Source: Rhodococcus maanshanensis NBRC 100610
Lineage (GTDB): Bacteria; Actinomycetota; Actinomycetes; Mycobacteriales; Mycobacteriaceae
Direction: 5' to 3'
Assembly: GCF_001894865.1 (NCBI RefSeq)
Contig: NZ_BCXA01000032.1
Location: forward strand, 1 to 64,000
DNA: 64,000 nt
The translations under genes and the position numbers were made by a program. Positions 1,084-34,936 of the stretch are shown here, piece after piece (the stretch's first letter is position 1; each line of letters begins with the position of its first letter). The notes below the pieces were generated by a model. It was not told the DNA's origin, searched no databases, and worked only from the letters and a program-made list of their open reading frames with translations.

Positions 1084-2030
1084 CACTGCTGCCCTCCCAG
1101 CCGGCACCAGCTCAGCGAACCGACCTGCGGCACTGGGAGATACGGGAGCAGGTCCGAGAAAGCCTTGCCGCTGACGACCCCTGCCGCCGAGAGGATCTCC
1201 GCGACACCGCAATCGGACAGCACCCCGGCCAGCCATGTCGACCGCAGACGCGGCACCATCAGGCGGGGCATCCCAGCGGGGTACTCGAACGACGCGAGCA
1301 GCGCTGCCGCCTGATCACGGCCCGTACGACGTGACGCCACCAACGGCCCCGCCCCCGCCCCAGCAGCGACCTTCTCCAGCCGATCAACCCAACCGGCCCG
1401 CACCGGAACCACCCGCCCCGCAGCGCCCGCGCCCCCGCCGAGCCTGACGGCCACCACGCCACCGACATCGACCACGTCCGAACTCACGACGGCGAATAGT
1501 TCACCCGAACGAGCACCCGCACCCACAGTCAGCGTCAGAATCGCCGTCATCGCCTGGACGCGGAACGGTCCGTTCTGCGATGCCGCCGCCTTCCAGTACG
1601 CCTCGACCTGCTCGCACGTGTACGGCGGCGACAAACCCTGCCGCGACCCGCGCTCGTCCGGCCCGGGCCACGGCGCCCGCTTCGTCACCGATCTCGCCAA
1701 CGTCCGCAATCGCGAGATCTCCGCCGACCGCGATGTCGGGGCCAACTCCCGCATCCCGGTCACCCGGTACCGCTCAAGCACCTCCGGAGTCAGCACCACC
1801 TCACGGTCAAGGACCAACCCGACGTCGACCGCCCACACCGCCAATCGGGTCAGTACCTTGAGTGCGTTCGCGGCCTGACTGTGCAGCGTCGGCTCCGACA
1901 GCGTCACTGTCTCGCGCACCCACTGCCCCACCAATGACCACGATTCCGGATCGACCGATCGTGGTTCAAAACACCTGATACACGCCGCAATTGAGACCGG
2001 GTCATCGGAGCGTCGCCGATACGCGGCCAT
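1083..2030 (-). CDS. Degenerate tyrosine-recombinase-like protein (first of a coupled pair)
   Basis: About 315 aa, starting at the ATG at 2030 (an in-frame opening to 2282 exists but its composition is not protein-like). The N-terminal helical segment is followed by an Arg-box-like GARSGELFAV and a second PRLRSTWL, the same architecture as the following gene, so the two are diverged paralogues. Here the GH position is changed (AGVVSG), while a Tyr (LLPYLP) lies where the nucleophile might fall. The 3' end overlaps the next start by one base. Tandem integrase-like genes occur on actinobacterial plasmids and mobile regions, so this edge of the window may be part of one. Activity is uncertain. 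Confidence 0.55.
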   Translation of the reverse strand: MAAYRRRSDDPVSIAACIRCFEPRSVDPESWSLVGQWVRETVTLSEPTLHSQAANALKVLTRLAVWAVDVGLVLDREVVLTPEVLERYRVTGMRELAPTSRSAEISRLRTLARSVTKRAPWPGPDERGSRQGLSPPYTCEQVEAYWKAAASQNGPFRVQAMTAILTLTVGAGARSGELFAVVSSDVVDVGGVVAVRLGGGAGAAGRVVPVRAGWVDRLEKVAAGAGAGPLVASRRTGRDQAAALLASFEYPAGMPRLMVPRLRSTWLAGVLSDCGVAEILSAAGVVSGKAFSDLLPYLPVPQVGSLSWCRLGGQQ

Positions 2031-3511: not shown

Positions 3512-4056
3512 CCGACCCTTTCAATAGAGATTCGGATGCACTTCCACGCTAGCCGCGCGGGAGGACACAGGCCACCAACCAACCCCGTACCGCACAGAAA
3601 GTGCGGCTGAGCAGTACCGGCACCATTCGTCCTGAGCCAGCGGTGCCGAGTTGTATGCCACGCCCACCACTCGGACTCTCTTGAGGTGCGCCTCGCCTGC
3701 CGCCAGTGCAACCGAAATTGGCCGATTGTCCCACCGGCAGAGACTCAGAGATGGGCGTATTGACCTTCACCCACACGGCTGGACACCAAACCGATCAGGC
3801 GTAGATCGACCCCCCAGCGTCTACGGTCGATTGAAGCCGCCCCGGATGATTCCGTGGCCGCGAGGGAATGGAATCGCGATTAGTTACCTCGAGCCAATTG
3901 CAGCAAGGATTGCAAATCGTCCAGTATTGGTCTCGCTATTCGCGGGCCCAGGACCTTGGCGGCCGATCTATCTGCTTTTCCCAAGCTTGCGCCAACCAAA
4001 AGTAGATAGCACTGCGAGGACGGCAGCAGCCTCCGCCCGAATAACGATGATGGCCG
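3512..4056. other. Gene-free stretch
   Basis: About 545 bp between the HTH gene and the 3' end of the NRPS operon. It is slightly less GC-rich than its surroundings. No credible coding frame, RNA gene or repeat was recognised. It probably contains the transcription end of the operon to its right, but no clear hairpin-plus-T terminator was found. Confidence 0.45.
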
Positions 4057-4620
4057 CTATGCCTCTACATGTGGACGGGAACCTAAGGGACTAGATTCAG
4101 GTCGAGGTGTTCCTACATTATTGTCCGGTGTCGGGAGTTGCAGCATAAAGACCCGGAGTTCGCGATTTGCTCGAGTCTGATATATTTCAAAGTTGGGCCA
4201 TTCAGCGACCAGCCGTGGCCAGAGGGCATCTCGTTCAGCTCCGGTTATGTGGTGCACCTGAACTCGCTTTTGTTCTCCCCGCACAATCGCATCGATTTCG
4301 ACTGCCTCGAGTAGGTTGGTACTCCACAATGGGTGGTTCGGCTTTCCCCAGTTCGAGCCAACAACCACATATTCATCTTTAGCGGTACGGATGGAAAGGA
4401 GCCGTATGGGACGTATAGTCCCGGTCTTGCGTCCGGGTATATATAGGATCACTGGCTTCATTCCAGCCCTGCGAACGAACGAATTCTGGTAATTTCCGCC
4501 GCGCGTGATGTACTCATCCAGCCGGACGATATATTTTGCGATCCGCGGAAATAATCGTGCCCGGCTGACTCGGAGGACTAGACGTCGCTTCATGCTTTGG
4601 GGAGGGGTAGTGGTCACCAT
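4057..4620 (-). CDS. Nitroreductase/deazaflavin-dependent oxidoreductase (DDN-like)
   Basis: 187 aa from the ATG at 4620 (GAAAG just upstream). The middle has the hallmarks of the F420-dependent DDN/split-barrel family: 'YIPGRKTGTIRPIRL', then 'EYVVVGSNWGKPNHPLW', the usual G-R-x-T-G and GSxxGxxxxPxW motifs. Members use reduced coenzyme F420 to reduce quinones, enones or nitro groups. It is the last gene of the minus-strand operon headed by the aminotransferase at 15705, 100 bp after an alpha/beta hydrolase, so it may do a late reduction on the NRPS product. The exact substrate is unknown. The upstream open frame as far as 4932 overlaps the hydrolase and is not part of the protein. Confidence 0.75.
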   Translation of the reverse strand: MVTTTPPQSMKRRLVLRVSRARLFPRIAKYIVRLDEYITRGGNYQNSFVRRAGMKPVILYIPGRKTGTIRPIRLLSIRTAKDEYVVVGSNWGKPNHPLWSTNLLEAVEIDAIVRGEQKRVQVHHITGAERDALWPRLVAEWPNFEIYQTRANRELRVFMLQLPTPDNNVGTPRPESSPLGSRPHVEA

Positions 4621-4720
4621 TATTCTTTCGCCGTTGGGTGTGAGTTGATGCCAGAATGGGGATACCTTGATCGCGACATAGCGCGAAACGCTGCAACCCT
4701 CTCCATAGGGAGAGCCGTGG

Positions 4721-5584
4721 CTAGTGGTGAGCGGGGCAAGCTTCGACTGCGTGTTGGCTGTGCCGGAGTAGGAATTCCACGATGACGTCGTTGACGTCTT
4801 CGTGGTGGTCGAAGATTGCATTGGTATGGCCGGCACCGATGATGGTCCTGAACTCTCCGTTCGGCATAGCCTCCGCGGCAGCGCGCCCTGTGCGGGGTGG
4901 CCAGCGAAGGTCATGTTCGAACGCCACCACAAGAGCGGGGACCCCTACCTGCGACCAGTGTTGATGATGGTCGCGTTCGAGTATCCATTCATTGCATGCG
5001 GAGTACTGACCTAGCATTCCGGGGGTCGCGAGTCCTTTGCGTGAGGAGACCATTCGCTGCCAGCTCCGTACAGCGTCGTCGTCGTCACGCAGGATGGTGT
5101 TGGGGAGACCCTGAGCGAGATCATCGGCGATGAACATGCTGTCCGGGAGCTCGGACCCGAATTTCAGTAGGTCACGCCAACTTTCGGCCCACACTCGGGT
5201 CATCGCCGTTGTTTCTCCCACGCCGCCCATCATGACCGCGGATTTCAACAAGTCCGGTCGACGGATGGTCATGTTCTCTGCGATGAAAGTTCCCTGCGAC
5301 AGACTGACAACATGCATTTGACCAAGTTCGAGTTCTTCTATCAGTGCGGCGAAGTCGTCGGTGAGCAGATCCAAGGTGTACGGATTGGGTGTTGATTGTG
5401 ACCGGCCGACGCCGCGTGCGTCCGCGATGATCGGCCGGAATCCGGCTTCGAGTAGTGCCGGCACCTGATAGGGCAGCCATGCCAGGCCCGGCATACCCGC
5501 GCCAGGAATCAGCAGGACGGGATCACCAGCCTCGCCGTGGATCTTGTAGTACATGTCAATCTCATTCACACGGGCGAGGGGCAT
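4721..5584 (-). CDS. Alpha/beta hydrolase in the NRPS operon
   Basis: 287 aa, ATG at 5584. A canonical alpha/beta-hydrolase fold: an oxyanion region LIPGAGMPG, a nucleophile elbow VSLSQGTF (Ser replaces the first Gly of G-x-S-x-G), a late acid region (FEHDLRWPP) and a catalytic His in GAGHTNAIF. The length fits a stand-alone esterase, peptidase or epoxide-hydrolase-type enzyme. It sits 42 bp after the metallo-hydrolase gene in the same operon. Because the NRPS lacks a thioesterase domain, this protein is one candidate for product release or trimming (inference). The unusual Ser at the elbow should be noted but occurs in some family members. Confidence 0.8.
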   Translation of the reverse strand: MPLARVNEIDMYYKIHGEAGDPVLLIPGAGMPGLAWLPYQVPALLEAGFRPIIADARGVGRSQSTPNPYTLDLLTDDFAALIEELELGQMHVVSLSQGTFIAENMTIRRPDLLKSAVMMGGVGETTAMTRVWAESWRDLLKFGSELPDSMFIADDLAQGLPNTILRDDDDAVRSWQRMVSSRKGLATPGMLGQYSACNEWILERDHHQHWSQVGVPALVVAFEHDLRWPPRTGRAAAEAMPNGEFRTIIGAGHTNAIFDHHEDVNDVIVEFLLRHSQHAVEACPAHH

Positions 5585-5626
5585 GGTTTGGCCTTTCGTC
5601 AGGTCAAGATCTGGAGTGTTTGCGGC

Positions 5627-6646
5627 TCAGCTGTTTCGAGTGATGAAGGTCGATGGGCCGTCGTCTGATGTATTGGCTGTGACCTCGCCGATGTCAATGA
5701 GGTATGTCAGGTGCGCCGAGCATTCGGACAGGGCGAGCTGCCAGCCGAGCGGGGGGATGTCTTCCCATCGGGTAGCCCAGGTCATCGACTCCGCGATTTG
5801 CCACAGCGACCTGGGATGACCGTCCGTGATGACTGCTCGCAGGTTGTCGAGTCGCCGATGATGGTGATCGACGATTTCGTCGATCCTTGTATCCCAATTG
5901 ATTTCGATTGCTTCGTGCGCGGGACGTAGCGAGTAGCCGTCGCGCACGAGCTCTCGAATAGTGCTGAGTGATTCGAGATACCTATGGAGCAGACGGTGCT
6001 CGTCGACAGGGAATACGAACTCGCCGACGTGGGGGCTGGTCCTCGAGAGAACATGGTCTCCGGTGAAGACCATCCGCTGCTTCTCCATCAATGCACCCAT
6101 ATGTCCGTGGGTGTGTCCGGGAAGCCACAGTGCAGTGAGATCGCCTGCCGCGGTTGCGATCGTGTCCCCATTCCGCAGGCGTCGATCCACCTCGGCTGTG
6201 GGTATCGCCATGGAGTAGCTTCCTCCGCAGTCGCTGTATGAATCGAGCGCTGAGCGCGGTGCTCCTGCAGATGCCAGGTTGTCCAGTTCCCATGACAGGT
6301 GGGAGTCGTGTGATTCAGTTGTGCGCATGCCTTCCATAAGGTCGGCGTCGAGTTCGTGCATGGCAATCCATGCACCTGACGCTTCCTGGATACGGCCGGC
6401 CAGCCCGGAGTGGTCAGGATGGTGGTGCGTGAGAATGATGCCCTCGGTATTGCCGATGTTCAGGCCGAGTGATGCGAGGCCGCTCGAGAGAGCCTGCCAA
6501 GCGGTTTCATCGTCCCATCCGGCATCGATGAGAATGGGCCCGTGCACGCCTTCAATGAGATAGACGCGCGTTGCGTTGATGGGGAGGCTCATTACTGGTA
6601 CATCGATCACGCCGAGCAGTCCGTCGTTTCCTGTCGAAATAGTCAC
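5627..6646 (-). CDS. Metallo-beta-lactamase-fold hydrolase
   Basis: 339 aa. The GTG at 6646 was chosen because GGAGAAG lies just upstream and the gene starts two bases after the MFS stop. Metal ligands are visible: the HxHxDH motif (LTHHHPDHSG), a third His in LPGHTHGH, the bridging Asp in FTGDHVL and a late His in RPAHE. The extra helical C-terminal ~100 residues (HHHRRLDNL onwards) resemble glyoxalase-II-like/MBL hydrolases with a winged C-terminal domain. Such enzymes hydrolyse thioesters, lactones or phosphoesters, so a thioester-release role beside an NRPS without TE is plausible but unproven. Confidence 0.85.
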   Translation of the reverse strand: MTISTGNDGLLGVIDVPVMSLPINATRVYLIEGVHGPILIDAGWDDETAWQALSSGLASLGLNIGNTEGIILTHHHPDHSGLAGRIQEASGAWIAMHELDADLMEGMRTTESHDSHLSWELDNLASAGAPRSALDSYSDCGGSYSMAIPTAEVDRRLRNGDTIATAAGDLTALWLPGHTHGHMGALMEKQRMVFTGDHVLSRTSPHVGEFVFPVDEHRLLHRYLESLSTIRELVRDGYSLRPAHEAIEINWDTRIDEIVDHHHRRLDNLRAVITDGHPRSLWQIAESMTWATRWEDIPPLGWQLALSECSAHLTYLIDIGEVTANTSDDGPSTFITRNS

Positions 6647-6648
6647 GG

Positions 6649-8160
6649 TTACTTCTCCTCTGGAAGTGGGTGATGGCTGCGGTCGATGAGGTCGACAGAC
6701 GGGAGTGCAAGCACGCACACGATGACCACGATCGCGCCGACTCCTCCAAGTTGGATGATCACGTCGGAGACGGCGGGAGCTGTGGCGTCGCGGGTGCTTG
6801 CTCCGGTGGTGCTTGCCTGCTGAGCTCCGGCAGCGAAGATGCCGCCAGCGAATGCGAGTGCCACGGTTCCGCCGATCTGACGAAAGAAGGTGACTGCGGA
6901 AGTGGCCAGCCCGACGTCGCTCGGGCCGAGTGAGTGCTGCGCGACCATCATCAGCCCTGAGATCATCGGGCCGATTCCGATGCCCAGGAGGGTTAGCCCG
7001 CCGTAGATCGCCGGTGTTGCCTCGCTCGGTAGCTCCCTCAGGAGGACCAGGCCGCCTATGGCGATGATCCCGAATGCGACAAGGGGCCAGCGATATTGAC
7101 CGGTCACCTTAACGATCGCACCGAGTACGACCATGCCCAGGACGAGACCCACCATCAGGGGAAAGGTGCGGATCGCCGATTCGGTGGCCGAGGTTCCAAG
7201 AGCGGTCTGAAAGTAGCGCGGAATGAAGATGACTGCCGGGTACATGAGGAAGGCGACCGCAAATGACGCGATGAGGGTCGGCGCGAGTCGACCACGCTTG
7301 AGCGTGGTGACGGGAATGATGGGGTTCGATGCACGTTGTTCGACAACAACAAAGAGCATGATCCCGATGACGCCGGCTGCAATGAGTGGCCATACCGACA
7401 TGTCACGCCATGCCAGCGGTACAGAACTCGCGCTGCCGCCCTTGTTGCTGAGTCCGATCAGTATTAGGCAGACGCTTGCCGAAAACACCACGAAGCCCGG
7501 CCAGTCGATTCGGCGTGTCCGATCACCTTCAGGTGGCTGTTCGTCCAGTGTTCGAACGACGATCAGCAGCACCAGAACGGCGATTGGAACATTGATGAAG
7601 AACACCCAATGCCAGCTCAGCTGGTCGGAAAGCAGGCCACCGAGGTAGGGGCCGATCAAGAGGCTGACGGCAATGATCGCGCCGAACGCACTCTGGATCT
7701 GAACTGCCTTCTCTGCTGGTGCTCGGTCGAGCATGAGGGCTAGAGGCACTGTCACAAGGACAGCAGCTCCAACTCCTTGCACGGCACGCGCTGCAACCAG
7801 GACGGCCGCATCTCCGGCTAGTCCACAGGCGATCGATGCTCCGGCGAACACCACGATGCCAAATACCAAGAGTCGCTTATGCCCGAATCTGTCCGAGAGC
7901 GATCCGAAAATCGGTACGAAGACCGTGGAGGTGAGTAGGTAGGAGGTGACGACCCAGGTATAGACGTGTGCACCGTCGATGTCCTCGGCAATCTTGGGAA
8001 GTGCGGTGCCGACGATTGTCTGGTCCAACACAGCCATGAACATGGACAGGATGATTGCGCCGACGAGGATTGTGGGGATGGGTCCTCGTGACGCAGTGTC
8101 CGACGTTACGGGAGGTTCGCTCTGCGTTTGATGGTCCGACATCTGGGAATGCGGGTTCAC
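6649..8160 (-). CDS. MFS exporter, DHA2 (EmrB/QacA) 14-TM type
   Basis: 503 aa. The first membrane helix carries the family motif LDQTIVGTALPKI, with motif A (GSLSDRFGHKR) after TM2 and the TM5 motif around GPYLGGLLSD. The length and helix count fit the 14-helix DHA2 drug:proton antiporters. The GTG at 8160 overlaps the upstream stop (GTGA); an ATG at 8142 is an alternative. Its position inside a biosynthetic operon, between the flavoprotein and the metallo-hydrolase, suggests export of, and self-protection from, the pathway product. Confidence 0.9.
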   Translation of the reverse strand: MNPHSQMSDHQTQSEPPVTSDTASRGPIPTILVGAIILSMFMAVLDQTIVGTALPKIAEDIDGAHVYTWVVTSYLLTSTVFVPIFGSLSDRFGHKRLLVFGIVVFAGASIACGLAGDAAVLVAARAVQGVGAAVLVTVPLALMLDRAPAEKAVQIQSAFGAIIAVSLLIGPYLGGLLSDQLSWHWVFFINVPIAVLVLLIVVRTLDEQPPEGDRTRRIDWPGFVVFSASVCLILIGLSNKGGSASSVPLAWRDMSVWPLIAAGVIGIMLFVVVEQRASNPIIPVTTLKRGRLAPTLIASFAVAFLMYPAVIFIPRYFQTALGTSATESAIRTFPLMVGLVLGMVVLGAIVKVTGQYRWPLVAFGIIAIGGLVLLRELPSEATPAIYGGLTLLGIGIGPMISGLMMVAQHSLGPSDVGLATSAVTFFRQIGGTVALAFAGGIFAAGAQQASTTGASTRDATAPAVSDVIIQLGGVGAIVVIVCVLALPSVDLIDRSHHPLPEEK

Positions 8161-9092
8161 GGCGCCGCCTTCGCCTGAATGTCATTGAAGGTCAGTTCCT
8201 GGTTCAGGACTGCGCCGACGTTGAGTCCGTCTGAGACCGCTCGAGCGATGAAGTGCATCCCCGAGGGAGCGCTGCTGCGGCGGGCGATGTCGCCGCAGGC
8301 ATACACCCCGGCGACGGAGGTCTGTCCGAGTTCGGACACTTCGATGGCGTCATCGTCGAGCCGTACGCACCCGAGGTCGTCCGCGATGTCGCTGGTGTAG
8401 TCGATTGGGGGATGTACTACGACGGCCTCGGCCGGCACCGAGCGTCCGTCGACAAGCTCCACTGCGGTGCAGGTACTTCCGTCCGCCGCGATTCTGGCAG
8501 GTTCTCCGTGTATGACCTCCACCCCAGCCTTCGTGAGCAGATCCATGTGAGGGCTGGAGTCGCCCGAATTGGGGGTGGCGATCAGGGTGACCGATGGTGA
8601 CCATTGGGTGAGCAATTCGGCGTGGAAGTAGTCCAGCGGCGACAAGCCCAGCATTACCAGTTTCCGGTTCCGCACTTCCCAACCGTGGCAGTACGGGCAG
8701 GCGAAGACCGTTCTTCCCCAGTTCTCGGCGAATCCCGGGACGTTGAGGAGGACATCTGTGACACCCTGAGCAATAACAACTCGGCGCGATTTGATTGTTG
8801 CCGGAACACCAGCTGTGTCGACGACAAATGCCCCTGGAGTTCCCGACGCTGAAACGGCGGGGCGATCGATACGGGTGACCGATGCGTATTGCGCGAGCTC
8901 GACGTGGGCCGCGGCTCGTAGATCACTCGGCGGTGCGCCGTCTCTTGTCAGGAACCCATGAGCTCGTTCGGCGAAGCGATTCCGCCCTGCTCCGGTGTCG
9001 AGCAGGGCAACCGTACGGCCGGTTCGGCCCAATGTCAGCGCGCAGCTCAACCCTGCGGGCCCCGCACCAATGATGGTGACATCTACGTTCAT
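8157..9092 (-). CDS. Thioredoxin-reductase-like FAD oxidoreductase with CPYC (dithiol-oxidase type)
   Basis: 311 aa, ATG at 9092 with AAGGAG upstream. The N-terminal GAGPAG FAD-binding fingerprint is followed by HGFLTRDG and a redox-active ACPYCHGWE (Cys132/Cys135), then a second nucleotide-binding region and a C-terminal FAD signature (VYACGDIARR). HGFL plus CPxCHGxE is the pattern of thioredoxin-reductase-like proteins such as GliT/HlmI/DepH, which form disulfides in natural products, but it also occurs in other small flavoproteins. Placement directly after an NRPS with a cysteine-like A-domain code makes thiol oxidation of the product an attractive inference. Confidence 0.8.
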   Translation of the reverse strand: MNVDVTIIGAGPAGLSCALTLGRTGRTVALLDTGAGRNRFAERAHGFLTRDGAPPSDLRAAAHVELAQYASVTRIDRPAVSASGTPGAFVVDTAGVPATIKSRRVVIAQGVTDVLLNVPGFAENWGRTVFACPYCHGWEVRNRKLVMLGLSPLDYFHAELLTQWSPSVTLIATPNSGDSSPHMDLLTKAGVEVIHGEPARIAADGSTCTAVELVDGRSVPAEAVVVHPPIDYTSDIADDLGCVRLDDDAIEVSELGQTSVAGVYACGDIARRSSAPSGMHFIARAVSDGLNVGAVLNQELTFNDIQAKAAP

Positions 9093-9124
9093 TCTCTGTT
9101 CTCCTTGTCCGTAGGGCGCAGGGT

Positions 9125-12100
9125 TCAGCGCAGTGCCGATCGGAATGATTCGAGAGCGTCGGGGTTCTGCCGTTGACTAGTCGACTGGATGAGAAGGGCC
9201 GCAAGTTCATCACTGAAATGGGCGGCAAGGTGCTTCAGTTCGGTGTCGTCGGCGTAGGACCTGCGAGCGGTGAAATCCACAACCAGGGCATTGCCGTGTA
9301 GGAATGGTGTGATGGCCAGGTTATGAGGCTGGTGATCGGCCATTGAGCGCTCATGACTGACGTTGGCGGACGAGTCTCGGATGAGCGTGGTGCCGCTGTC
9401 TGCAGTCCGGCCGAGGTAGTTGAACGCGACATCGGAGTCACGCCAGGTCATGGCCTGGCCGCGCTCGTGCAGGTATCTCAGCTGGCCGTACCCAAGGCCA
9501 TGCTGAGGCACCTGGTCGAGTGCTCGTCGTGTTCGACGCAGGACACTGAGTTGGTTGCCGCGGCCTGCTTGCACCGCGATTGGATAGATGACGTTGAACC
9601 AGCCGATAGTCCGGGAGATCTCAAGATTCCCGCGAAGGTCGTGTCGGCCGTGTCCCTCGATGTCGATCTGTACTCGAGATTCGCCCTTCCAACGGTGAAT
9701 CGCGGAGATGCTGGCGGCCAAGAGAAGATCGCGTACTGTCACGCGCTGCTCAGATGCACAACGTGTGAGGGCCTCTTCTAGTGGATCGTTCGACTCGTAG
9801 CGCGCCGCGGTGAGCTCAGCGGCTCGTGAACCATCGGGCAAAGCGTGACCTGTGGGGCGGGTCTCCTGATCGGCCAGGGCATTCCAGTACTCCACTTCGG
9901 AGGTTGGGTTGCCAAAGTTCGTGTACTCGGCGCACTCGTGAGCCCACGCGGCAAAAGGACTACCTGGTGCTGATTCTTCAGTGATCTCCCCCATGTATGC
10001 GCGGTCGAGTTCGTCGCAGAGAACATTGATTCCCACGCCGTCGACGATGAGGTGATGTGCCGAGACGAGCAGCCGTGTTCCGTGCCGCGAAGGAAGTACT
10101 GCCACACGGAATAGCGGCGCCGTGTGGAGGGAGTACGAGGCCTGGACCTCTCGCACGAGGGCATCCTCGTCGGCACCCAAGTCGGCGATCGTGAGTACGT
10201 TGTCGAGATCGATCTGATCGGCGTGCCCGATCGACTGTTGCCATCCGCTTGGTTCATGTCGATACACGTATCTGAGGACGTCATGCCGACGGACAAGAAG
10301 ACCGATTGCGTCCTTCAACCGTGCTGTGTCTACCGGCTCGTCGGTACGCAGCCATGCCGACCGGTTGAAATGATGAAGGTCGTTGAGTTCGAGGCTGAAG
10401 AACCACCGCTGCACCGGCGTAAGCGGAACATGGTCGCCGGGCATTGGGATGATCTGCCGATCATTTCGCGTCTTTCGTTCTACGGGGAGGGCGACAGCGG
10501 CGAGACTTCGGACTGTGGGGTGGTCGAAGAGGTCCTGAGGTCTGACAGCCAAACCCTCAATACCGAGATTACTCACCACATCCAGGGCGGCAAGCGAATC
10601 GCCGCCCGACCCAAAGAAGTCGTCGTCTAACGAAATCGCCGTGCGCTGCAGTACGCGGCACCATACGTCGTGAATCGTGTGCTCGGTGGAAGTCATTGCA
10701 GCGCTATGACTCTCGGATCCGGAATCCTGGATCCCCGGCGCCGGCAGGGACTTGTTGTCAATCTTTCCGTTCGTAGTCAGCGGGAAGGAGTCAAGGACGA
10801 CAAAGCGGCTAGGAACCATGTACGCGGGAAGTCGACCGCGGAGGAACTCACGCAAATCGGAGATCTCGAGGTCGTTGACGCCAGGAACAACGTATGCCAC
10901 GATCCGGCGAGTTCCATCGTCAGCACGAACGTCACAGTGAGCATCACGGACGGAAGAATGCTCACGAAGGTTGTGATCGATCTCGGTCAGCTCGATCCGA
11001 TAGCCGTTGACCTTGACCTGTGTATCGCGGCGGCCGAGGAACTTGATGATTCCGTCTCGCCCGTACTTTCCGTAATCGCCAGTCCGGTACCACCGTGAGC
11101 CATCCCGCAAGGTCACGAACGCCGCGTCAGTCTTCTCCTTGTCACGCCAGTATCCCTGCGCCACACCGATTCCACCGATGTACAACTCGCCGGCAACATT
11201 GACGGGAACAGGGTTTCCGATCTCGTCGAGGATACGGAAGGCTTGTCCGGCGAGCGGTGTGCCATAAGGGATCGAGTCCCACCGAGGGTCAACGCCGTGA
11301 ATGTCGTAGACGATCGACCAAATCGACGCTTCGGTAGCTCCACCCATACTGACAACCCGAGCGTTCGGGCAAAGTGCACGGATTCGGTCTGGCAACGTCA
11401 CCGGGATCCAGTCGCCGGACATCATGACCAAGCGAAGGCTAGATAGGTCGATCCCATGGCGTTCGGCTTCGCCGACAACGAGTTCCATCAGCGCCGGCAC
11501 ACTGTTCCAAACAGTAACTCCCTGGCTCTCGACCAACCGGGCCCAATGCGCGGGGTCACGCGACTCCGCTTCGTCTGGGAGTACCACGGTTCCACCGACG
11601 CCCAGAATTCCGAAGATGTCGAACACCGATAGATCAAAGTTCAACGCGGACAACGCAAGAACAGCGTCAGATCGATTCACCTCGAAGCGCCGGCATATGT
11701 CGACGACCGTGTTTGCGGCACTCGAGTGGGCGATCTCAACCCCCTTGGGGAGACCAGTTGATCCTGATGTGAAAATCACGTAGGCGCTACGACCAGGGTC
11801 GATCTCAATCGCCTCAAGTGCCACTGCGTCATCAGGAATCGGGTCTTCCCGGCTATCGATGTCGATCACAGTGATGCCGTCAGGCCACTGGTGTGCAAGC
11901 CGTGTCTGGGCGTTGGTCAGTACGAGCGTCGTCCGGCCGCGCTCAAGGAGATAGTGCAGGCGGCTGTCGGGGACCTGGGCATCGAGAGGTAGGTACGCGG
12001 CGCCCTCTGCATTGACAGCGAGGACGGCGGCGATCTGCTTGCTGTACTTGGGAAGCACAACTGCGACCAGGCTGTCTTCCGCGGGCTGGTGTGCTCTGAT

Positions 12101-13516
12101 CGCCCGACGAATCCGGTCGACCGCAACTCCCAGCTCGCCGTAGGTCACCTGCTGTCCCTGGTCGACGATCGCCGTGCGGGACGGGTCCTGCGTCAACTGA
12201 GTCATAGCACGCGAATGGAGGGTTTCGTTCTCGCAAGCGGCAGGGCCACCACTGCTCCAATCCTCGAACTCGGTGACCTCGCGCTCGTCGAGCATTGGGC
12301 ATTCGAGCGTGGAGACGGAGCCATCGGCTGCTGCGCTTTTGGCAACCATCTCGATATGGGTAGCTATGGCGGTCGCGGTCGGGCGGTCGATGATGCTTGG
12401 ATCGAAAACGAAGTTCCACTGTTGGGCGGCATCGCCCGGGTGGACCGCCGTAGCCGGCCCCGCAAGCGCCACGTCGTATGGGGAACGGAAGTCCCGGCTC
12501 GCAACGATGCCGTCGATGTCCGCCATCCCGAGGTACGGAGACGTATCTGCGAGAGCTGCTTGGAAGAGCGGTGTACGTGACGGGTCACGATCGGGTGCGA
12601 GTTGGTCGATCAGCTGTGTCATGTCTGTGGGATGCTCGGTGTAGAAGCCTCGGAGCGAGTTGGTCTCGCTAACAACGGAGTCGAATGTCGTGGTACTCAG
12701 TTCGATCGGCACCGGCAGGAGCTGTTCTCTGCCATCGCGGGGGGACTTGACTGGCACGCCAATTGCGGTTGACCTGATGCCTGAGTGCCGCATGAGAACG
12801 GCGGCAAGGATCGTTGCTGCGGCGTCGATGCGAGATGCGTTGGAGCGTTGTCCGATGATGTCAAGGTGATGGGTGAACGCCATCGGATTTCGAAGCGGGA
12901 CCGCTGTGCATTGCGTCCCTTTGATCGGTGGGCGGGCAACGAGCGCCGGCAATGAAAGGGGCTCGGCGGCGGCGAGTCGGTCGAGCAGCCTTGCACGTAG
13001 GTCGGGGGCAACTTGGCGAACTTCCATGCTGTGAGGTTCGTGGACCTCAACGTGGCAACCAAGGCGCTCCAGCAGAGCTGCGAGGATACGGGCACAATCG
13101 AACTCATCGCATAGCATCCGGCTTGCGGTGAGACCGATCATTGTTCTATCGCCGACTGTCGCCATCGACCATCTCGTCAAGCGATCGCCAGGCTGATGGA
13201 CGTCGGCCCACAGTGATTCTGTGAATGATGTGCCGTTATTCCCAGCTGGACGGAGAATGCTGGCGCTGGGACTTCCGGCGGAGTCGGCGGCCTCAATCTG
13301 AGGACGGTTTCCGATCAGCACTAGGTATGAACGCAGAACGTCAAAGTCGTGTTCGACTTCAGCGATCGCCGCTGTTATCACCTCTGGGGCGATCGCTCGC
13401 GCAACTGTAGCTGTGGCGATCGCGTGGGTCGCTGATGTCTGTTGCCCGAGGCGGGAGAGGAACCACACTCGGTGGTCGCCTACGCGAGTTGTCGTCGTCG
13501 CGTTGATGTTCGTCAT
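9125..13516 (-). CDS. Single-module NRPS: degenerate C, A (cysteine-like code), T, E
   Basis: 1463 aa. Residues ~10-415 form a condensation-like domain whose HHxxxDG is replaced (around SRMLCDEFD), so it is probably inactive. The A domain (~430-925) shows TSGSTGLPKG, GGATEASIW, YRTGDYG and NGKID (Lys918). Reading the ten specificity positions by alignment to PheA gives D628 L629 F632 N671 M698 S700 M724 I732 W733 K918, very close to the published cysteine code DLYNLSLIWK. The T domain carries GGDSL (Ser974). Residues ~1020-1455 contain all seven E motifs (TPVQRWF, HHLIVDG, DLLLA, EGHGR, RTIGWFNVIYP, GLGYG, FNYLG), so it is an epimerisation domain. No thioesterase is present. The predicted carrier-bound product is D-cysteinyl. 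No clear Shine-Dalgarno precedes the ATG. Confidence 0.9.
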   Translation of the reverse strand: MTNINATTTTRVGDHRVWFLSRLGQQTSATHAIATATVARAIAPEVITAAIAEVEHDFDVLRSYLVLIGNRPQIEAADSAGSPSASILRPAGNNGTSFTESLWADVHQPGDRLTRWSMATVGDRTMIGLTASRMLCDEFDCARILAALLERLGCHVEVHEPHSMEVRQVAPDLRARLLDRLAAAEPLSLPALVARPPIKGTQCTAVPLRNPMAFTHHLDIIGQRSNASRIDAAATILAAVLMRHSGIRSTAIGVPVKSPRDGREQLLPVPIELSTTTFDSVVSETNSLRGFYTEHPTDMTQLIDQLAPDRDPSRTPLFQAALADTSPYLGMADIDGIVASRDFRSPYDVALAGPATAVHPGDAAQQWNFVFDPSIIDRPTATAIATHIEMVAKSAAADGSVSTLECPMLDEREVTEFEDWSSGGPAACENETLHSRAMTQLTQDPSRTAIVDQGQQVTYGELGVAVDRIRRAIRAHQPAEDSLVAVVLPKYSKQIAAVLAVNAEGAAYLPLDAQVPDSRLHYLLERGRTTLVLTNAQTRLAHQWPDGITVIDIDSREDPIPDDAVALEAIEIDPGRSAYVIFTSGSTGLPKGVEIAHSSAANTVVDICRRFEVNRSDAVLALSALNFDLSVFDIFGILGVGGTVVLPDEAESRDPAHWARLVESQGVTVWNSVPALMELVVGEAERHGIDLSSLRLVMMSGDWIPVTLPDRIRALCPNARVVSMGGATEASIWSIVYDIHGVDPRWDSIPYGTPLAGQAFRILDEIGNPVPVNVAGELYIGGIGVAQGYWRDKEKTDAAFVTLRDGSRWYRTGDYGKYGRDGIIKFLGRRDTQVKVNGYRIELTEIDHNLREHSSVRDAHCDVRADDGTRRIVAYVVPGVNDLEISDLREFLRGRLPAYMVPSRFVVLDSFPLTTNGKIDNKSLPAPGIQDSGSESHSAAMTSTEHTIHDVWCRVLQRTAISLDDDFFGSGGDSLAALDVVSNLGIEGLAVRPQDLFDHPTVRSLAAVALPVERKTRNDRQIIPMPGDHVPLTPVQRWFFSLELNDLHHFNRSAWLRTDEPVDTARLKDAIGLLVRRHDVLRYVYRHEPSGWQQSIGHADQIDLDNVLTIADLGADEDALVREVQASYSLHTAPLFRVAVLPSRHGTRLLVSAHHLIVDGVGINVLCDELDRAYMGEITEESAPGSPFAAWAHECAEYTNFGNPTSEVEYWNALADQETRPTGHALPDGSRAAELTAARYESNDPLEEALTRCASEQRVTVRDLLLAASISAIHRWKGESRVQIDIEGHGRHDLRGNLEISRTIGWFNVIYPIAVQAGRGNQLSVLRRTRRALDQVPQHGLGYGQLRYLHERGQAMTWRDSDVAFNYLGRTADSGTTLIRDSSANVSHERSMADHQPHNLAITPFLHGNALVVDFTARRSYADDTELKHLAAHFSDELAALLIQSTSQRQNPDALESFRSALR

Positions 13517-13560
13517 GGGAGGTAGTCGCTTCTTCCGTCGGAATGGTCTTGAAGTTGTTG

Positions 13561-15705
13561 TCAGCGAGCGCCACGGCGGACGGTGCGCTGGTAGGCCAGC
13601 CGGCTACGTGCTGATGCGGCGATCCGAGTGATGGCGTTGGTATAGACACCCAGCACTGTGAGTTGTCGCGACGATTCGGCAATCCGGAACATCGCCTCGA
13701 AGTATTCGGCTTGAGGCGGCACAAGAGGAGGGAACAGGCGTTGCTGTGCGAGCAGGACGTTGGAACGACGCAGCATGACGTCCTGTAGAGATGCTTCGAG
13801 AGTCTGACCCAGGGCGCTCGTCGATGGTTCGGGAAACCAGCGGCGATTCGGAATGAGACGAAGCAACAATCCAGTCCCAGCCATCCCAGAGAACACAGGT
13901 GATGCGGAGGCAGCCGATTGGAAGGCACGCTTCGCAACGGACTTCGAGTAGTCAATGTGGCCACTGTTTGAGGATTCGGTTACATGACGAAGCGAGTCGA
14001 CTGCAATGTGACATCCGAGTTGATTCAGGTAGTTCTCGCGAATCTGCTGTACGGCAGCTGGATTGGACGCCGCTGCGCGATCAACGAGGTCATCGGATGC
14101 TATGGCCAGCCCGAAGGGGAGAACCATATCGCTCATTGGTTTGGCCAAGGTCGTGAGATCTGCACGAAACCCGAGGTCGGCCTGGTAGAGCAAGTTCTTA
14201 CCCGCTCGGTGGTACCCGGTGAGTACTTCGTCGATTCCGATCAGGTAGCCGTAGTGTTCTCGGCCGCCGACAATGTCCCGAAGCAGGTCTTCGGGTAGGT
14301 GTCGACACTGCATACCTTGGATCAGTTCGCACCACACGAGTCCGACGTCGTACTGGTTGAGGGTCTCAGCAAACTGCTCTCGAGCGGTGTCTGCGAAGGC
14401 ATCGATGTAGACAACGTTCCGGTTGTATGGAGCAAAAGCCTGAGGATGGGATGCGGAACGTTGCGGCCCATGCTTGCTGAGCGATATCGCAGGCAGGGTC
14501 TTTCCCGAGTAGTTGCCTTTGAATGTAACGATCGTTCTTCCTGGCGAGGCCAGAGCTGCAAGATAGAGAGCGTTGTCAACGGCCGTGGCACCGCTCACCG
14601 CCGGGAAGAGCCGTACACCGCCGACCTGTTCTCGCATTGCGCGTTCGAGATCGGCGAAGTAGTCGTGGTTGCTGTCGTGGCTCATGAGGATATCCGCGAC
14701 GACGCTGGAAGGGTTATGCCCACGCAAGCTGGCTCCAGTGCCACCTGCGCAGTCGTACACGGTGCTCCCGTCGCGTAGCGTGAGGAGCATTCCCTTCGCC
14801 TCCACGATGTCGAGGTCTTGTCCGAACATCTCAAGCCCTGCTCCCGCGCTGGGGTTGACGTGCCGGCGGAAGTACGTGTTCCTGGTCTTGCGATCGCCGG
14901 AGATTGCGCACAGCAGGCTCTCGGTGTCACCGTCGATTGCACCTAAGTTCCGAAGGTGGTGTTCGACTAGGTGAAGGCAGTTTCCGTTCCCGCCAAATGT
15001 TGAGGTATGGGCAAGGCTGTCTGTGACGTTGTTCCAGACGCGATAGCTCGATGCCGGCATCACCATGCATCCGAACGGAACCTGATAGTCGGCAAGATTC
15101 TCACCAAAGACGTATACGTCTGGCACCGGCCCCAGATCGCCGATGTCGTCGCGAGAGCGCAGCGGGTGAAATCTGGCTAGTGCCACGAGGATTCCAGAAT
15201 TCACCGCGGTTTCACGCACGCGAATCGATGACTTGTCGGCTGCGGAATCCTCCACCACAACAACTGCAACGTAGGCGGCCGATTCGATGGCTCGTTGGGC
15301 ATCGTCGGCCGTGTGTACAACGTCGACGCCCGGATGCAGGTCTATGAAAGCGGTGAGTGACCACAGCATCGGGTCGTCGACGCTGCGGTTCCGCCCGTCG
15401 AAGACAAGGACGTGCCCCGAAGAAGAGTCATCGGCGATGATTGCGTTGTGCCGCAATAGCTTTATCGCGCCGAAGGTCGCCTCGTCTGCCGAGTTCGCAA
15501 AGAACGAGTAGTGCCTCTGCGGGTCGGTTTCCGGCCGCCGCACGGCGCGGTCGAGGACTACAGCTAGGCGAGCGGCCTCCTCGCTTACCGACGCGCCAGC
15601 GAACAGCATGTTGAGCCGCCCGTCGGCAGTCCGCTCCGCGATCGCATCCCGGGTCCGTTCACCCGCATTGCGGTACCTACTGAGTGTGCGCTCATCAGAC
15701 AGCAT
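13561..15705 (-). CDS. Two-lobed class-III aminotransferase (pseudo-domain fused to catalytic domain)
   Basis: 714 aa, ATG at 15705 with AAGGGGGAG upstream; first gene of the operon. Residues ~30-255 look like a class-III PLP aminotransferase lobe (FFANSADEA, then VPFGCMVM and HTSTFGGN), but the Schiff-base Lys position is Glu202 and the IDEV Asp is lost. Residues ~270-714 are a second aminotransferase domain with IDEVLTGYHRAG (Asp492) and TLAKPMSD (Lys522), but it lacks the STFGGN loop. In class-III dimers the Thr of that loop reaches the PLP phosphate of the neighbouring subunit, so each lobe keeps what the other lost. It probably supplies or modifies an amine in the NRPS pathway. Substrate unknown. 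Confidence 0.8.
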   Translation of the reverse strand: MLSDERTLSRYRNAGERTRDAIAERTADGRLNMLFAGASVSEEAARLAVVLDRAVRRPETDPQRHYSFFANSADEATFGAIKLLRHNAIIADDSSSGHVLVFDGRNRSVDDPMLWSLTAFIDLHPGVDVVHTADDAQRAIESAAYVAVVVVEDSAADKSSIRVRETAVNSGILVALARFHPLRSRDDIGDLGPVPDVYVFGENLADYQVPFGCMVMPASSYRVWNNVTDSLAHTSTFGGNGNCLHLVEHHLRNLGAIDGDTESLLCAISGDRKTRNTYFRRHVNPSAGAGLEMFGQDLDIVEAKGMLLTLRDGSTVYDCAGGTGASLRGHNPSSVVADILMSHDSNHDYFADLERAMREQVGGVRLFPAVSGATAVDNALYLAALASPGRTIVTFKGNYSGKTLPAISLSKHGPQRSASHPQAFAPYNRNVVYIDAFADTAREQFAETLNQYDVGLVWCELIQGMQCRHLPEDLLRDIVGGREHYGYLIGIDEVLTGYHRAGKNLLYQADLGFRADLTTLAKPMSDMVLPFGLAIASDDLVDRAAASNPAAVQQIRENYLNQLGCHIAVDSLRHVTESSNSGHIDYSKSVAKRAFQSAASASPVFSGMAGTGLLLRLIPNRRWFPEPSTSALGQTLEASLQDVMLRRSNVLLAQQRLFPPLVPPQAEYFEAMFRIAESSRQLTVLGVYTNAITRIAASARSRLAYQRTVRRGAR

Positions 15706-15745
15706 TCGACTCCCCCTTGTCCTGAATACTCTCCCCTAATGAACA

Positions 15746-15774
15746 TAGATACTGTCAATAAAGTTGATTGTCAA
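15746..15774 (-). promoter_or_regulatory. Consensus promoter of the NRPS operon with overlapping inverted repeat
   Basis: On the minus strand a perfect -35 TTGACA (15774-15769) is followed by exactly 17 bases and a -10 TATCTA (15751-15746), about 40 bases before the aminotransferase ATG. The -35 lies in an inverted repeat TTGACAATCAA (15774-15764), a possible regulator site, and a second TTGACA lies within the spacer. A match this good is uncommon in actinobacterial DNA and suggests strong sigma-A-type transcription unless repressed. Confidence 0.7.
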
Positions 15775-15775
15775 A

Positions 15776-16384
15776 CGCTGGGATGCACGGGTGTGCACAG
15801 CGTGGAGGCCGGCCGTTCGATGTTCCGCGAAAGATGCAGCTCGGCTGCGTGGCGCGTCCGTGATTGCCACCCGGCACCACAAGGGCTGAGCGATGGGTGC
15901 GGTCGTGGACACCACCCGAAGAATGAGGTGGTGACGCACCGTACAAGCGGATTTCATGCCTAACTGGTCGTCAACCGAGTGCAGCAGGTATGCGCACCCA
16001 TGGCCGAACCCTTCGAGGGGCGACACGAGGTTGGTCGCTTCGTGTAGCAGCGGCGTTGCCAAGCTACCCGGGCCGATCGTGCGCCGATCGCGGCAATCAG
16101 ACCGGGGGGCGATACATTGCGTCGACGAGTTCTCCATCCGGCAGGTCGCCACTACCGTCGTCTATTCTCGCTCGGCACGCCCTACGAACTCGAACAGTCC
16201 CTGCGTCGGTAGAGCACGCGGATCATCGCCTCGACCTGCCGACGCGGGTATCGATGCCACTATGGCGGCAGCCGTTACGCGAGCTGGTGCGATTTTCGGA
16301 GCGTTCGCAGCCGTCGGCCTCGTCCTTCATGACGCCCGGAGGAACTTGGACTACAGGCTCCGCCACAGATTCGCCGTCAGCCTC
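15776..16384. other. Gene-free stretch between the NRPS operon and marR-type gene
   Basis: About 610 bp. Both strands hold open frames, but none resembles a protein family, and codon usage looks shadow-like. A decayed gene is possible because the frames show short plausible peptides, but nothing could be assigned. Confidence 0.4.
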
Positions 16385-16834
16385 CTATACCGAAGGCGGT
16401 AGGACAGTGAGACGCCGGATGTGTCGAGTGACAGAGACGAAGGCTTCGAGGTTTTCAGGCGAGACGTCCTTCAGCAGCCACTCGGCGGCCGTTGTCCGAT
16501 GCGATTCGATCTGGGCTGCGAGATCGGTACCCGTTTCGGTTAGGGATACCAAATGTGCGCGCCGATCGGTCGGGTCCGGATGTCTCTCGATCAGCCCCTT
16601 TTGCCCTAGTACGTCCAGTACGGCGGCAACCTGCTGGGCACTGCAGCCCATCGCGTCGCTGATCTGACGCTGGCGCACCGGCCCCAAGTGGAATATCGCG
16701 TGCAGCATCCTCGCTCGAATCGAGGTGAGCCCTAGTTCTTTGACGCCTCGCTCCATCAAGTCGCTGAGCTGGGCACTCATCAGAAATGCCTCGTCCATAG
16801 CGGTGCGGGGTGAGGAGGCCAGCATTTCGTCCAT
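16385..16834 (-). CDS. MarR-family transcriptional regulator
   Basis: 149 aa, ATG at 16834. A winged HTH typical of MarR: helix 3/4 region QRQISDAMGCSAQQVAAVL and the wing LIERHPDPTDRRAHLVSLTETG, with the DxRxxxxxLT signature. Family members are dimers that bind palindromic operators and release on ligand binding. A perfect palindrome sits five bases before the start codon, suggesting autoregulation. It is transcribed in the same direction as the NRPS operon, 680 bp upstream of it, so it is the nearest candidate local regulator, but the operon promoter does not carry the same palindrome. Confidence 0.88.
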   Translation of the reverse strand: MDEMLASSPRTAMDEAFLMSAQLSDLMERGVKELGLTSIRARMLHAIFHLGPVRQRQISDAMGCSAQQVAAVLDVLGQKGLIERHPDPTDRRAHLVSLTETGTDLAAQIESHRTTAAEWLLKDVSPENLEAFVSVTRHIRRLTVLPPSV

Positions 16835-16838
16835 ATTT

Positions 16839-16850
16839 TGACTATAGTCA
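16839..16850. promoter_or_regulatory. 12-bp perfect palindrome at the MarR gene start
   Basis: TGACTATAGTCA is a perfect 12-bp palindrome located just upstream of the MarR start codon and at the head of the divergent hydrolase remnant. Position and symmetry fit an autoregulatory MarR operator. The core ACTATAGT recurs at 53109-53116 in front of another transporter gene. Confidence 0.5.
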
Positions 16851-16919
16851 CGATTGACTTCGGATTTGCTTGGTAATCGATGAGCAGGCGCCTGGGCGAA
16901 CGGTCAAGGCAAGGGGCGA

Positions 16920-17414
16920 GTGCCCGACGAGTGTGCTCTGAGTTCGGCGATGGAAGCATCTGCAGCGGGCCTCATCGGGGCCTTGTCGGCGTGCTTGCCG
17001 CCGACCATCCACGGTGCAATCGGGGCCGACCACCGCCAGGTCGAGGTGGACGGGCACCGGATGAGCGTCGCGGTCCAGGGCTCAGGATCGCGAACCATCG
17101 TCCTGTTGCCCGGATAGGGCATACCGAAACCGATCCTCGACTTCGCCCCACTGGCCTAGCGCCTCGCCGAGCAGAACTCGGTCGTCGTCGTCGAGAACTT
17201 CGGACTTGGTCTCAGTGACGGCACCTACGCGGCCGCAACGCGCCGAGCCTCGGCAGGTCGGGCAATCCTGGCAGAACGGTTGGGCATATTGGCTGCCGAG
17301 ATGACGGACGTTCTCAGGTCGTCAACTCAGGTGAGGGCTCCACCTACCAGCGAACGGCTCCGCATCAGAAACCGGCTTCTTCCCAGCCCTTCCGCAAGGT
17401 TCGCTGCGGGTTAG
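16920..17414 (+). pseudogene. Alpha/beta hydrolase remnant with two in-frame TAG stops
   Basis: One reading frame gives a recognisable N-terminal alpha/beta-hydrolase segment: VEVDGHRMSVAVQGSG, TIVLLPG, stop, GIPKPILDFAPLA, stop, RLAEQNSVVVVENFGLG, then LSDGTY. The two stops (TAG at 17115 and one around 17157) fall where homologues are expected to have Tyr and an acidic residue. After about 17235 the similarity fades and no Ser elbow or catalytic His follows. It diverges from the MarR gene, so it was probably the original target of that regulator before decay. Confidence 0.65.
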
Positions 17415-17492
17415 CAAGCGCCGCAGTTTTCGACGAATGCGCACGGCTTCTCGACCAGCGTCGGCACAGAGAACAGGGTGTGGGCGATCCTG

Positions 17493-18410
17493 TCAGCTGT
17501 ATTCTGCGACTTCAGCAATTACAGATCGGGCAGCGGTGATCAGCTGTGACAGTCCGGGTTCCTCGATCGGGAAGTGCCCGCAGTTCTCGAGGAGGACCGA
17601 CTGTGTGGGTGCGGCGATGCGGTCGAGGAACCGCTGGCTGGGTTGCGGCGGAGTCCATCGGTCCGCTGCGGGGTGAAGAAGCGTGACCGGGGCGGCGGTG
17701 AACTGCTCAGGTGCGGTGTGCGGGTAGGTGAACCAGTCGGCGAGGAATCCGAGAGGGACCCAGACCCCACCTCCTCGTGGGTCAGAACTGCACAGGCGTG
17801 ACAGGTCGGGGTTGTTGCTCATCTGGTTCATGCGTACGAGCCACTTGATCGGTAGTCGCAGATTGCTGGCAACCCGCGCAACAGGCGGCAGGAGTGTGGG
17901 TGCAGCCTTGCCCGCGAAACTCCATCGGGCTGCGGCCGCCCGGGCTTCAGGATCGGCGGTGTCGAGTAGGCAGGTCGCCAGCACTGCAGCGACTTGTCTT
18001 GTGCGAGCGGCGACCTCGTATGCCATCATCCCGCCCATACTCGCCCCGAAGAGCACCAGCGGACGCGGGTCGCTGGCCCGCTCGGCTTCGACCAAGTCGC
18101 AGAGCAGGTCGATCCAATCTCGGTAGCGAACCTGCGCCGGCCGAGGTTCGACGGTGAGTCCGTAGATCGGCATATCGGGGAACAGGATTTCGACGCCTTC
18201 GTCCGCGGCCAGGGATGCAAAGGGCCAGAGAGCCATTGCGTGACCACCGGCGCCGTGGATTCCCATGACACGGACGGGCGCATCGGGGCGAGAAGCACGC
18301 GCGATGTGGACACGGCGACCGCGCCATTGCCACCACGTCGACTCCGGTTCGCTGCTAGCCGATCGGTAGCCCTCCGGAAGGAAACCTGCATATCGAGCCG
18401 CGTCCGTCAT
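17493..18410 (-). CDS. Alpha/beta hydrolase divergent from the ArsR-family gene
   Basis: 305 aa, starting at the ATG at 18410 because GGGGGAG lies eight bases upstream. Features are GIHGAGGHAMALWP (oxyanion region), nucleophile elbow LFGASMGGMM, the late acid in HPAADRWTPP and the catalytic His in NCGHFPIEEPG. The whole fold is present, so this is an intact esterase/lipase-like enzyme; the substrate cannot be predicted. It is divergent from the CmtR-like regulator, and the 18-bp palindrome at 18472-18489 lies between them, so the regulator may control it too. Confidence 0.82.
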   Translation of the reverse strand: MTDAARYAGFLPEGYRSASSEPESTWWQWRGRRVHIARASRPDAPVRVMGIHGAGGHAMALWPFASLAADEGVEILFPDMPIYGLTVEPRPAQVRYRDWIDLLCDLVEAERASDPRPLVLFGASMGGMMAYEVAARTRQVAAVLATCLLDTADPEARAAAARWSFAGKAAPTLLPPVARVASNLRLPIKWLVRMNQMSNNPDLSRLCSSDPRGGGVWVPLGFLADWFTYPHTAPEQFTAAPVTLLHPAADRWTPPQPSQRFLDRIAAPTQSVLLENCGHFPIEEPGLSQLITAARSVIAEVAEYS

Positions 18411-24793: not shown

Positions 24794-24917
24794 GATGGAT
24801 GGATGGAGGGTGTTCACCTATGACGGTTCATTCTGGGCTGCATGCAGATTGGATTGTTTGACCACTCGGTAATCACACTTGAGGACGGTTCCAAATCACA
24901 CAAATCTGGATCCGTTC
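24794..24917 (+). repeat. R1 dispersed repeat, copy 3
   Basis: Begins GATGGATGGATGGAGGG, then GTTCACCTATG, GGGCTGCATGCAGATTGGAT, TTTGACCACTCGGTAATC and ends with the CCAAAT/ATCTGG hairpin. It is in direct orientation with copy 4 at 25673; a small membrane-protein gene lies between them. Confidence 0.85.
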
Positions 24918-24942
24918 GAAGTTAGTGGCCGACAGGACGTGA

Positions 24943-25650: not shown

Positions 25651-25672
25651 TGTCCGATGGGCGCAGCTCCAC

Positions 25673-25802: not shown

Positions 25803-25923
25803 TACGTGTGATGTCCTGGCCGAGGGTGGGCGACAGAGTGGGCATCGAACGGGGAAAGGAGGATCGTCTACGCATCCACCCCTGTCCCGGCCATTGCCTC
25901 GCCAACCAGCCAGCCGGATTCGC

Positions 25924-34895: not shown

Positions 34896-34936
34896 GTTTG
34901 TGAAGTCAGCTTCAATGGGCTTCGATTCCGGCCGCC

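Follow-up and report, generated by a model that had tools for sequence, protein, structure and literature searches.

A seven-gene Rhodococcus operon with a predicted condensation-free cysteine module and a fused aminotransferase

What can an operon make when its only nonribosomal peptide synthetase (NRPS) consists of a single module? The question is raised by a minus-strand run of seven genes, from 15705 down to 4057, in a 64,000-nucleotide stretch of Rhodococcus maanshanensis NBRC 100610 (contig NZ_BCXA01000032.1, positions 1 to 64,000), referred to here as the window. The answer proposed below is an operon, probably acquired horizontally and adjacent to a MarR-type gene, whose product would be a small sulfur metabolite made from D-cysteine and exported, perhaps a disulfide, a reading that we judge to be evenly balanced between right and wrong. 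An earlier note, made from the letters of this DNA, had described seven same-strand genes with overlaps or short gaps; all seven open reading frames (ORFs) lie where it placed them, and each encoded protein scores above the curated Pfam cut-off. The strongest additions to that first reading are a dead condensation (C) domain in the NRPS and an aminotransferase in which two fused copies should share one active site. In gene order, the operon comprises the following.

13561..15705, minus strand: fused class III aminotransferase P0007, 714 amino acids (Aminotran_3, E-value 3.9e-25; closest among solved structures, the aminotransferase domain of PigE)
9125..13516, minus strand: NRPS P0006, 1463 amino acids, with vestigial C, adenylation (A), carrier (T) and epimerization (E) domains, from Pfam, motifs and alignment
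8157..9092, minus strand: flavin adenine dinucleotide (FAD) flavoprotein P0005 of DepH/GliT type (Pyr_redox_2, 5e-26; DepH, 8e-43; GliT, 2e-23)
6649..8160, minus strand: DHA2-type exporter of the major facilitator superfamily (MFS) (MFS_1, 1.5e-51; EmrB model, 211.2 bits, under its cut-off of 230.2)
5627..6646, minus strand: metallo-beta-lactamase-fold (MBL) hydrolase (Lactamase_B, 3e-21; HHHPDH and PGHTHGH motifs)
4721..5584, minus strand: alpha/beta hydrolase (Abhydrolase_1, 4.6e-20)
4057..4620, minus strand: F420-dependent DDN-type reductase, start trimmed (F420H2_quin_red, 8.6e-18)

Intergenic spacing along the operon is 44, 32, -4, 2, 42 and 100 bases, the value of 2 using a GTG start for the MBL gene at 6646, its likely start in preference to 6718, and the value of 100 using an ATG for the DDN-type gene at 4620. 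The DDN-type ORF as originally listed (4057-4932) runs into the hydrolase gene, and it matches its family only from residue 154 onwards (profile position 18); the gene is therefore likely to be 4057-4620, with its start near 4620. With this trimming, the two hydrolases, the MFS exporter and the F420-type reductase named earlier all hold by their Pfam matches, as does the absence from the operon of a thioesterase or a second module.

The domains of the NRPS are central to the argument.

12239..13516, minus strand: vestigial C domain, its HHxxxDG site reading SRMLCDE (residues 132-138), with a 26-residue deletion behind it
10745..12229, minus strand: A domain (residues 430-924), code DLFNMSMIWK, of cysteine type by alignment with PchE and BmdB
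10493..10708, minus strand: carrier domain with GGDSL (PP-binding, 2.4e-12, plus motif)
9149..10435, minus strand: E domain with HHLIVDG and EGHGR intact (Pfam Condensation, 7.5e-62, plus motifs)

The A domain (Pfam AMP-binding, 1.1e-75) finds its top solved matches, over 271 residues, in PchE (7emy, 3.4e-78) and BmdB (7ly7, 1.7e-77), both of which we take to be cysteine enzymes. At the nine aligned positions that we assume to form the specificity code, it reads DLFNMSMIW, where PchE has DLFNLSLIW and BmdB has DLYNLSLIW; seven of the nine are identical to PchE and the remaining two are Leu-to-Met changes, the tenth position (Lys) falling outside the aligned stretch. A cysteine-activating type, as the near-cysteine code reported earlier implied, is supported by these alignments. 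PchE and BmdB differ from P0006 in having heterocyclization (Cy) domains and in making thiazolines. An A domain that accepts a cysteine analogue instead, such as alpha-methylcysteine or another small residue, would suit the two Leu-to-Met changes and the third rank among A-domain matches of 6lta (after PchE and BmdB), presumably the alpha-methylserine enzyme FmoA3. The seven positions shared with PchE, the better fit of PchE and BmdB across the domain, and the 6lta reading of GGPTETICWS where P0006 has GGATEASIWS make this substrate decidedly unlikely.

Behind the carrier, the E domain is complete, with both of its hallmarks (HHxxxDG and EGHGR), and a single unbroken alignment with tyrocidine synthase 1 spans the A, T and E domains. 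The description of one NRPS module survives for A, T and E; what it passed over is the N-terminal domain. The first 426 residues have no Pfam Condensation match and match solved C domains weakly (best E-value 2.6e-4), and it is alignment with 19 C domains that places SRMLCDE at the catalytic site and reveals the missing residues behind it. By these features the N-terminal domain is a decayed C domain and the module a predicted condensation-free A-T-E. Since the C domain lacks its catalytic motif, the NRPS is expected to load cysteine and to epimerise it without any condensation. A Cy domain at this position is unsupported, four of the six weak solved matches being NRPS proteins, two named condensation domains; the vestige may nevertheless descend from a decayed Cy domain. 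The N-terminus has matches in 18 of 401 genomes of the family (its own included), with a best non-self score of 42.4 bits against 941 for itself. Searches with the whole NRPS gave no full-length relative among the matches listed, either in plasmids or in 377 genomes of the order, where the best non-self match (649 bits against 3326 for self) is partial and lies within larger NRPSs. The open-licence literature yielded nothing pertinent on single-module, D-Cys or Rhodococcus NRPSs, which does not show such work to be unpublished.

A 4406-residue frame in another genome (L059 in G1021) contains two stretches that match the A-T-E of this NRPS at 38-39%; the stretch read has the cysteine-type GGATEASIWS together with EGHGR, so cysteine modules with an E domain are also found in long NRPSs.

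In lacking a working C domain, P0006 resembles GrsA and TycA, A-T-E initiation modules of the kind whose C-terminal E domains commonly feed the C domain of the next protein; it differs from them in using cysteine rather than phenylalanine, in keeping a vestige of C and in having no downstream module in its cluster. P0006 could accordingly be an initiation module that passes D-Cys in trans to a large NRPS of the genome, the other genes tailoring the resulting peptide. The C-terminal position of the E domain fits such a role, and the genome has no fewer than 97 matches of Condensation type (a count that includes E domains and fragments), almost all of them within long frames of other contigs. 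No partner NRPS is present, however, in the operon or its 107.5-kb contig, where the sole Condensation match is this E domain, and the operon carries its own exporter; initiation in trans is unlikely, if worth keeping in view.

The second element of the proposed reading is the fused aminotransferase, which divides into two halves.

14851..15705, minus strand: degenerate N-terminal aminotransferase half, Glu202 at the lysine site, TSTFGGN loop kept
13564..14850, minus strand: catalytic C-terminal aminotransferase half, with Lys522, Asp492 and SGAT at 371-374, TTFGGNP-type loop lost

The C-terminal half (from about residue 286) is a class III aminotransferase, with the pyridoxal 5'-phosphate (PLP) lysine and the aspartate both present and PigE as its closest solved relative. 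The N-terminal domain of PigE is described as a reductase (PMC8341465) and the second fused domain of the PigE and TamH transaminases as a thioester reductase (PMC8341465, PMC9594044). The second domain of P0007 is instead a degenerate aminotransferase: a profile search with the N-terminal half has a class III aminotransferase as its best match (E-value 3.9e-4), 18 of the 20 matches at an E-value of 1 or less are aminotransferases and none of the 20 is a PigE-type reductase, while the 50 best rows for a separate structural model of this half are class III aminotransferases or constructs of them. A transaminase-reductase fusion like those of PigE and TamH was rejected on this profile and model evidence. 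The aminotransferase fusion of the earlier note is thus a fused protein, whose partner domain, an internal degenerate duplicate, had gone unmentioned.

The pattern of catalytic residues was compared in ten full-length sequences (P0007, L015-L021, L010 and L045). The PLP-lysine site of the N-terminal half is Glu in all ten, and an STF or TTF loop is kept there in nine; in the C-terminal half, the lysine is kept in nine and the TTFGGNP-type loop in none. L010, from Methylorubrum extorquens, is the sole exception, having lost both the N-half loop and the C-half lysine. Complementary loss is found in P0007 and eight full-length actinobacterial relatives, and a further relative in genome G640, split across two contigs (L043, L044), has the same two sites. 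In class III enzymes, the Thr of the TTFGGNP-type loop extends to the partner subunit, where it contacts the phosphate of PLP. Each half thus supplies what the other has lost, and on this conserved residue pattern the aminotransferase should be a single-chain pseudo-dimer with one composite active site, formed by the N-half loop and the C-half Lys522. Four observations weigh against a pseudo-dimer: the N-half model is of modest quality (pLDDT, the predicted local distance difference test, 60.3; structural matches at TM-scores of about 0.43-0.54), the other aminotransferase model is also of modest confidence (pLDDT 65.9), Pfam and single-sequence searches detect the C-terminal half only, and a profile comparison of the two halves aligns 66 columns at an E-value of 0.004 with a probability of 8.4%. 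If the assignment is true, a naturally dimeric PLP enzyme has been turned into a single-chain, single-site one by complementary loss in two fused copies. No paper on a fused or tandem aminotransferase was found in the open-licence literature, which does not show that none has been published.

The degraded C domain, the low G+C content of the stretch and its strain-specific occurrence might also mark a decaying operon whose function is being lost. All seven frames are open, however, and the remaining parts retain the catalytic motifs that were inspected; nor does the missing N-half lysine of the aminotransferase reflect local decay, since it is gone from all ten sequences compared. We regard decay as very unlikely.

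Thiol chemistry is suggested by the flavoprotein encoded directly after the NRPS.

8688..8699, minus strand: CPYC (Cys132, Cys135), preceded by Ala131, from alignment with solved relatives

The solved structures closest to P0005 are 3fbs (1.6e-49), DepH (8e-43), 4ntd (1.7e-41), 4fk1 (5e-39) and GliT (2e-23); the chains of 4ntd, which we take to be HlmI, and of 4fk1 bear thioredoxin reductase names, and the next thioredoxin reductase follows only at 9.4e-19. With its FAD fold and CxxC motif, P0005 is nearer to DepH, its closest characterised relative, than to ordinary thioredoxin reductases. It shares the fold, FAD and CPYC with DepH, HlmI and GliT but has Ala before CPYC where 3fbs, two DepH sequences and 4ntd have His. 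Of the claim that this is a CPYC flavoprotein oxidising dithiols, the motif and the DepH-like character stand; because of the Ala, the oxidation itself is likely but not secured. DepH-group enzymes form disulfides, and one of them, DnoP, shields non-producers, as one report describes (PMC11317636). The flavoprotein and exporter might similarly offer protection from disulfide toxins, the role of DnoP in Pseudomonas aeruginosa, an organism making no such product, in which case the product of the operon would contain no disulfide. Because the flavoprotein gene belongs to an operon with a cysteine NRPS and follows the NRPS gene by 32 bases, a purely defensive role is quite unlikely.

The holomycin cluster likewise combines a Cy-A-T cysteine NRPS (HlmE), a dithiol oxidase (HlmI) and an MFS exporter (HlmH), according to its description (PMC3826145). 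The present operon resembles it in its one cysteine module, dithiol-oxidase-type flavoprotein and MFS exporter, and these shared features are what a dithiolopyrrolone-like pathway, in which a single Cys module iterates and a dithiol oxidase acts, would explain. It differs in that P0006 is a vestigial C-A-T-E protein, with a dead C domain and an extra E domain where HlmE is Cy-A-T; holomycin tailoring genes were not found, the Pfam matches of the seven proteins including no acyl-CoA dehydrogenase, flavin mononucleotide (FMN) oxidoreductase, N-acyltransferase or decarboxylase family; and the fused aminotransferase, metallo-hydrolase and F420-type enzyme are additions. A holomycin-type pathway was rejected on this difference in gene content, and we give it hardly any credence.

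Release from the carrier could fall to the MBL protein, whose HHHPDH and PGHTHGH motifs are as in glyoxalase II. Among NCBIfam models it scores best with Strvi_7410 (239.9 bits against a cut-off of 525), a name not found in the open-licence literature, and it weakly matches hydroxyacylglutathione hydrolase (42.9 bits against a cut-off of 200.8); the latter match and the glyoxalase-II-like motifs favour a stand-alone thioesterase. No similar operon was seen around plasmid relatives of the MBL gene or of the NRPS N-terminus (two records), one neighbourhood being read for each.

From the gene content, the cysteine-type A domain, the intact E motifs, the degenerate C domain and the complementary aminotransferase halves, all read from sequence, we infer every chemical step that follows and the order of the steps, the very small sulfur product included. 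The A domain would adenylate L-Cys and load it onto the carrier, where the E domain would convert it to D-Cys-S-carrier; the NRPS itself, its C domain being dead, would form no peptide bond. A stand-alone hydrolase, more likely the MBL enzyme than the alpha/beta hydrolase, would then free the thioester. The fused aminotransferase might aminate an aldehyde or keto partner or act on a keto acid derived from cysteine, the product thiols would be oxidised to a disulfide by the DepH-like flavoprotein, the DDN-type enzyme would reduce one bond, and the MFS protein would export the product. Besides the Ala in front of CPYC and the weak -10 hexamer described below, three points weigh against this route: an aldehyde-forming enzyme is absent among the seven genes; a single Cys per product gives no intramolecular disulfide unless two are joined; and a second copy of the operon was not found in the searches made, so that its genes are not shown to travel together. 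Those searches likewise gave no matching operon, in keeping with the earlier claim on this point. More tentatively, and expecting the idea to fail rather than hold, we suggest that the condensation-free NRPS serves as a carrier-bound cysteine racemase (L-Cys to D-Cys) feeding the metallo-hydrolase, the one-site aminotransferase and the dithiol oxidase. If true, NRPS machinery would here operate without forming a peptide bond, towards a disulfide derived from D-cysteine; the pathway would be of a new kind, and a compact one-module route to D-cysteine metabolites.

The fused aminotransferase itself was found in one of six genomes of the genus, the window's own (E-value up to 1e-10), in five of 401 genomes of the family (1e-30) and three of 394 of the class (1e-60), own genome included in both counts, and in three genomes by a contig search that reaches close relatives only; among 165 plasmid records with an aminotransferase match, one covers more than 80% of its length. 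Eight aminotransferase loci, tested at an E-value of 1e-8 and more than 50 bits, showed nothing nearby related to the flavoprotein, the exporter or the hydrolases, and the NRPS query matched nothing but an acyl ligase, at 57.8 bits, in L010. The latter locus, the Methylorubrum megaplasmid match, we take, unconfirmed, to be the toblerol cluster. A ninth locus (L045), on a 10.3-kb contig, has the aminotransferase only. Five mycobacterial-type loci (L015-L019) encode the fused aminotransferase of the operon, at 36-40% identity, and all five have a DDN-type gene close by, but they differ from the operon in having no relative of its NRPS, flavoprotein, exporter or hydrolases at the same thresholds. 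Common to all five are a cytochrome P450, a wax ester synthase/diacylglycerol acyltransferase (WS/DGAT) and the aminotransferase; a second P450 (at least 72% identity), a short-chain dehydrogenase/reductase, a flavin-containing monooxygenase-like protein and a sulfotransferase are present in four, not in L018, and a carboxylic acid reductase-type gene in two (L015 and L019). A DDN-type gene lies near the aminotransferase in five of the eight loci. DDN-type genes are common in mycobacteria, and because the five loci share the P450, WS/DGAT and aminotransferase, and so amount to about one case, the link between the aminotransferase and the DDN-type gene is only suggestive. By predicted gene content, the fused aminotransferase recurs in different clusters, sometimes beside a putative aldehyde-forming enzyme, and it is usable as a probe for further uncharacterised actinobacterial clusters.

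An outside origin of the operon is suggested by its composition and flanks. Six 2-kb segments over 4001-16000 have G+C contents of 0.571-0.613, against 0.604-0.678 in the other 26; plain G+C content was used instead of that at third codon positions because the gene picker favours frames rich in the latter. The left flank is 87-88% identical to congener G005 as far as 3554; across the 38.4 kb compared on that G005 contig, nothing matches the operon. With the integrase-like ORF and the defence-type genes of the window described below, the operon region looks like an accessory region, probably acquired horizontally. Two features lie upstream of it.

15769..15774, minus strand: TTGACA, possible -35 element, a perfect hexamer, with TATCTA 17 bases on
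16385..16834, minus strand: MarR-type regulator, about 680 bases upstream of the operon on the same strand

The product of the MarR-type gene possibly controls the operon. The consensus promoter described earlier is borne out in its -35 hexamer and falls short in its -10, TATCTA fitting at only three of six positions; a promoter scan of 15600-17500 listed no promoter-like site. An Rfam scan gave no match at gathering thresholds.

Several further features were observed in the window. At 154-1236 (minus strand) lies an integrase-like ORF that is under the Pfam cut-off and has no PHROGs match, with related DNA at three places of a congener contig (G005:C24). A 978-residue protein at 20323-23259 (plus strand) has a SEFIR-like N-terminus (PADLOC bSEFIR, 3.4e-15; Pfam SEFIR just under its cut-off) and possibly acts in anti-phage defence, and the gene at 46229-47458 (minus strand), encoding an ApeA N-terminal domain with a weak ApeA-like HEPN match, is another possible defence gene. 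Positions 47653-48727 and 61564-62640 form a 1.08-kb direct duplication at 97% identity, with a third, partial copy of 164 bases at 62677-62840. Interspersed repeats of about 120-135 bases, in both orientations, occur at 19604-19743, 23700-23816, 24794-24923, 25669-25803, 34769-34901 and 36009-36139; they are also matched in congener G005 and make up a mobile-element-like family. Partly similar repeats, some inverted and at 69-86% identity, lie at 31592-32261, 32582-32737 and 56191-57598.

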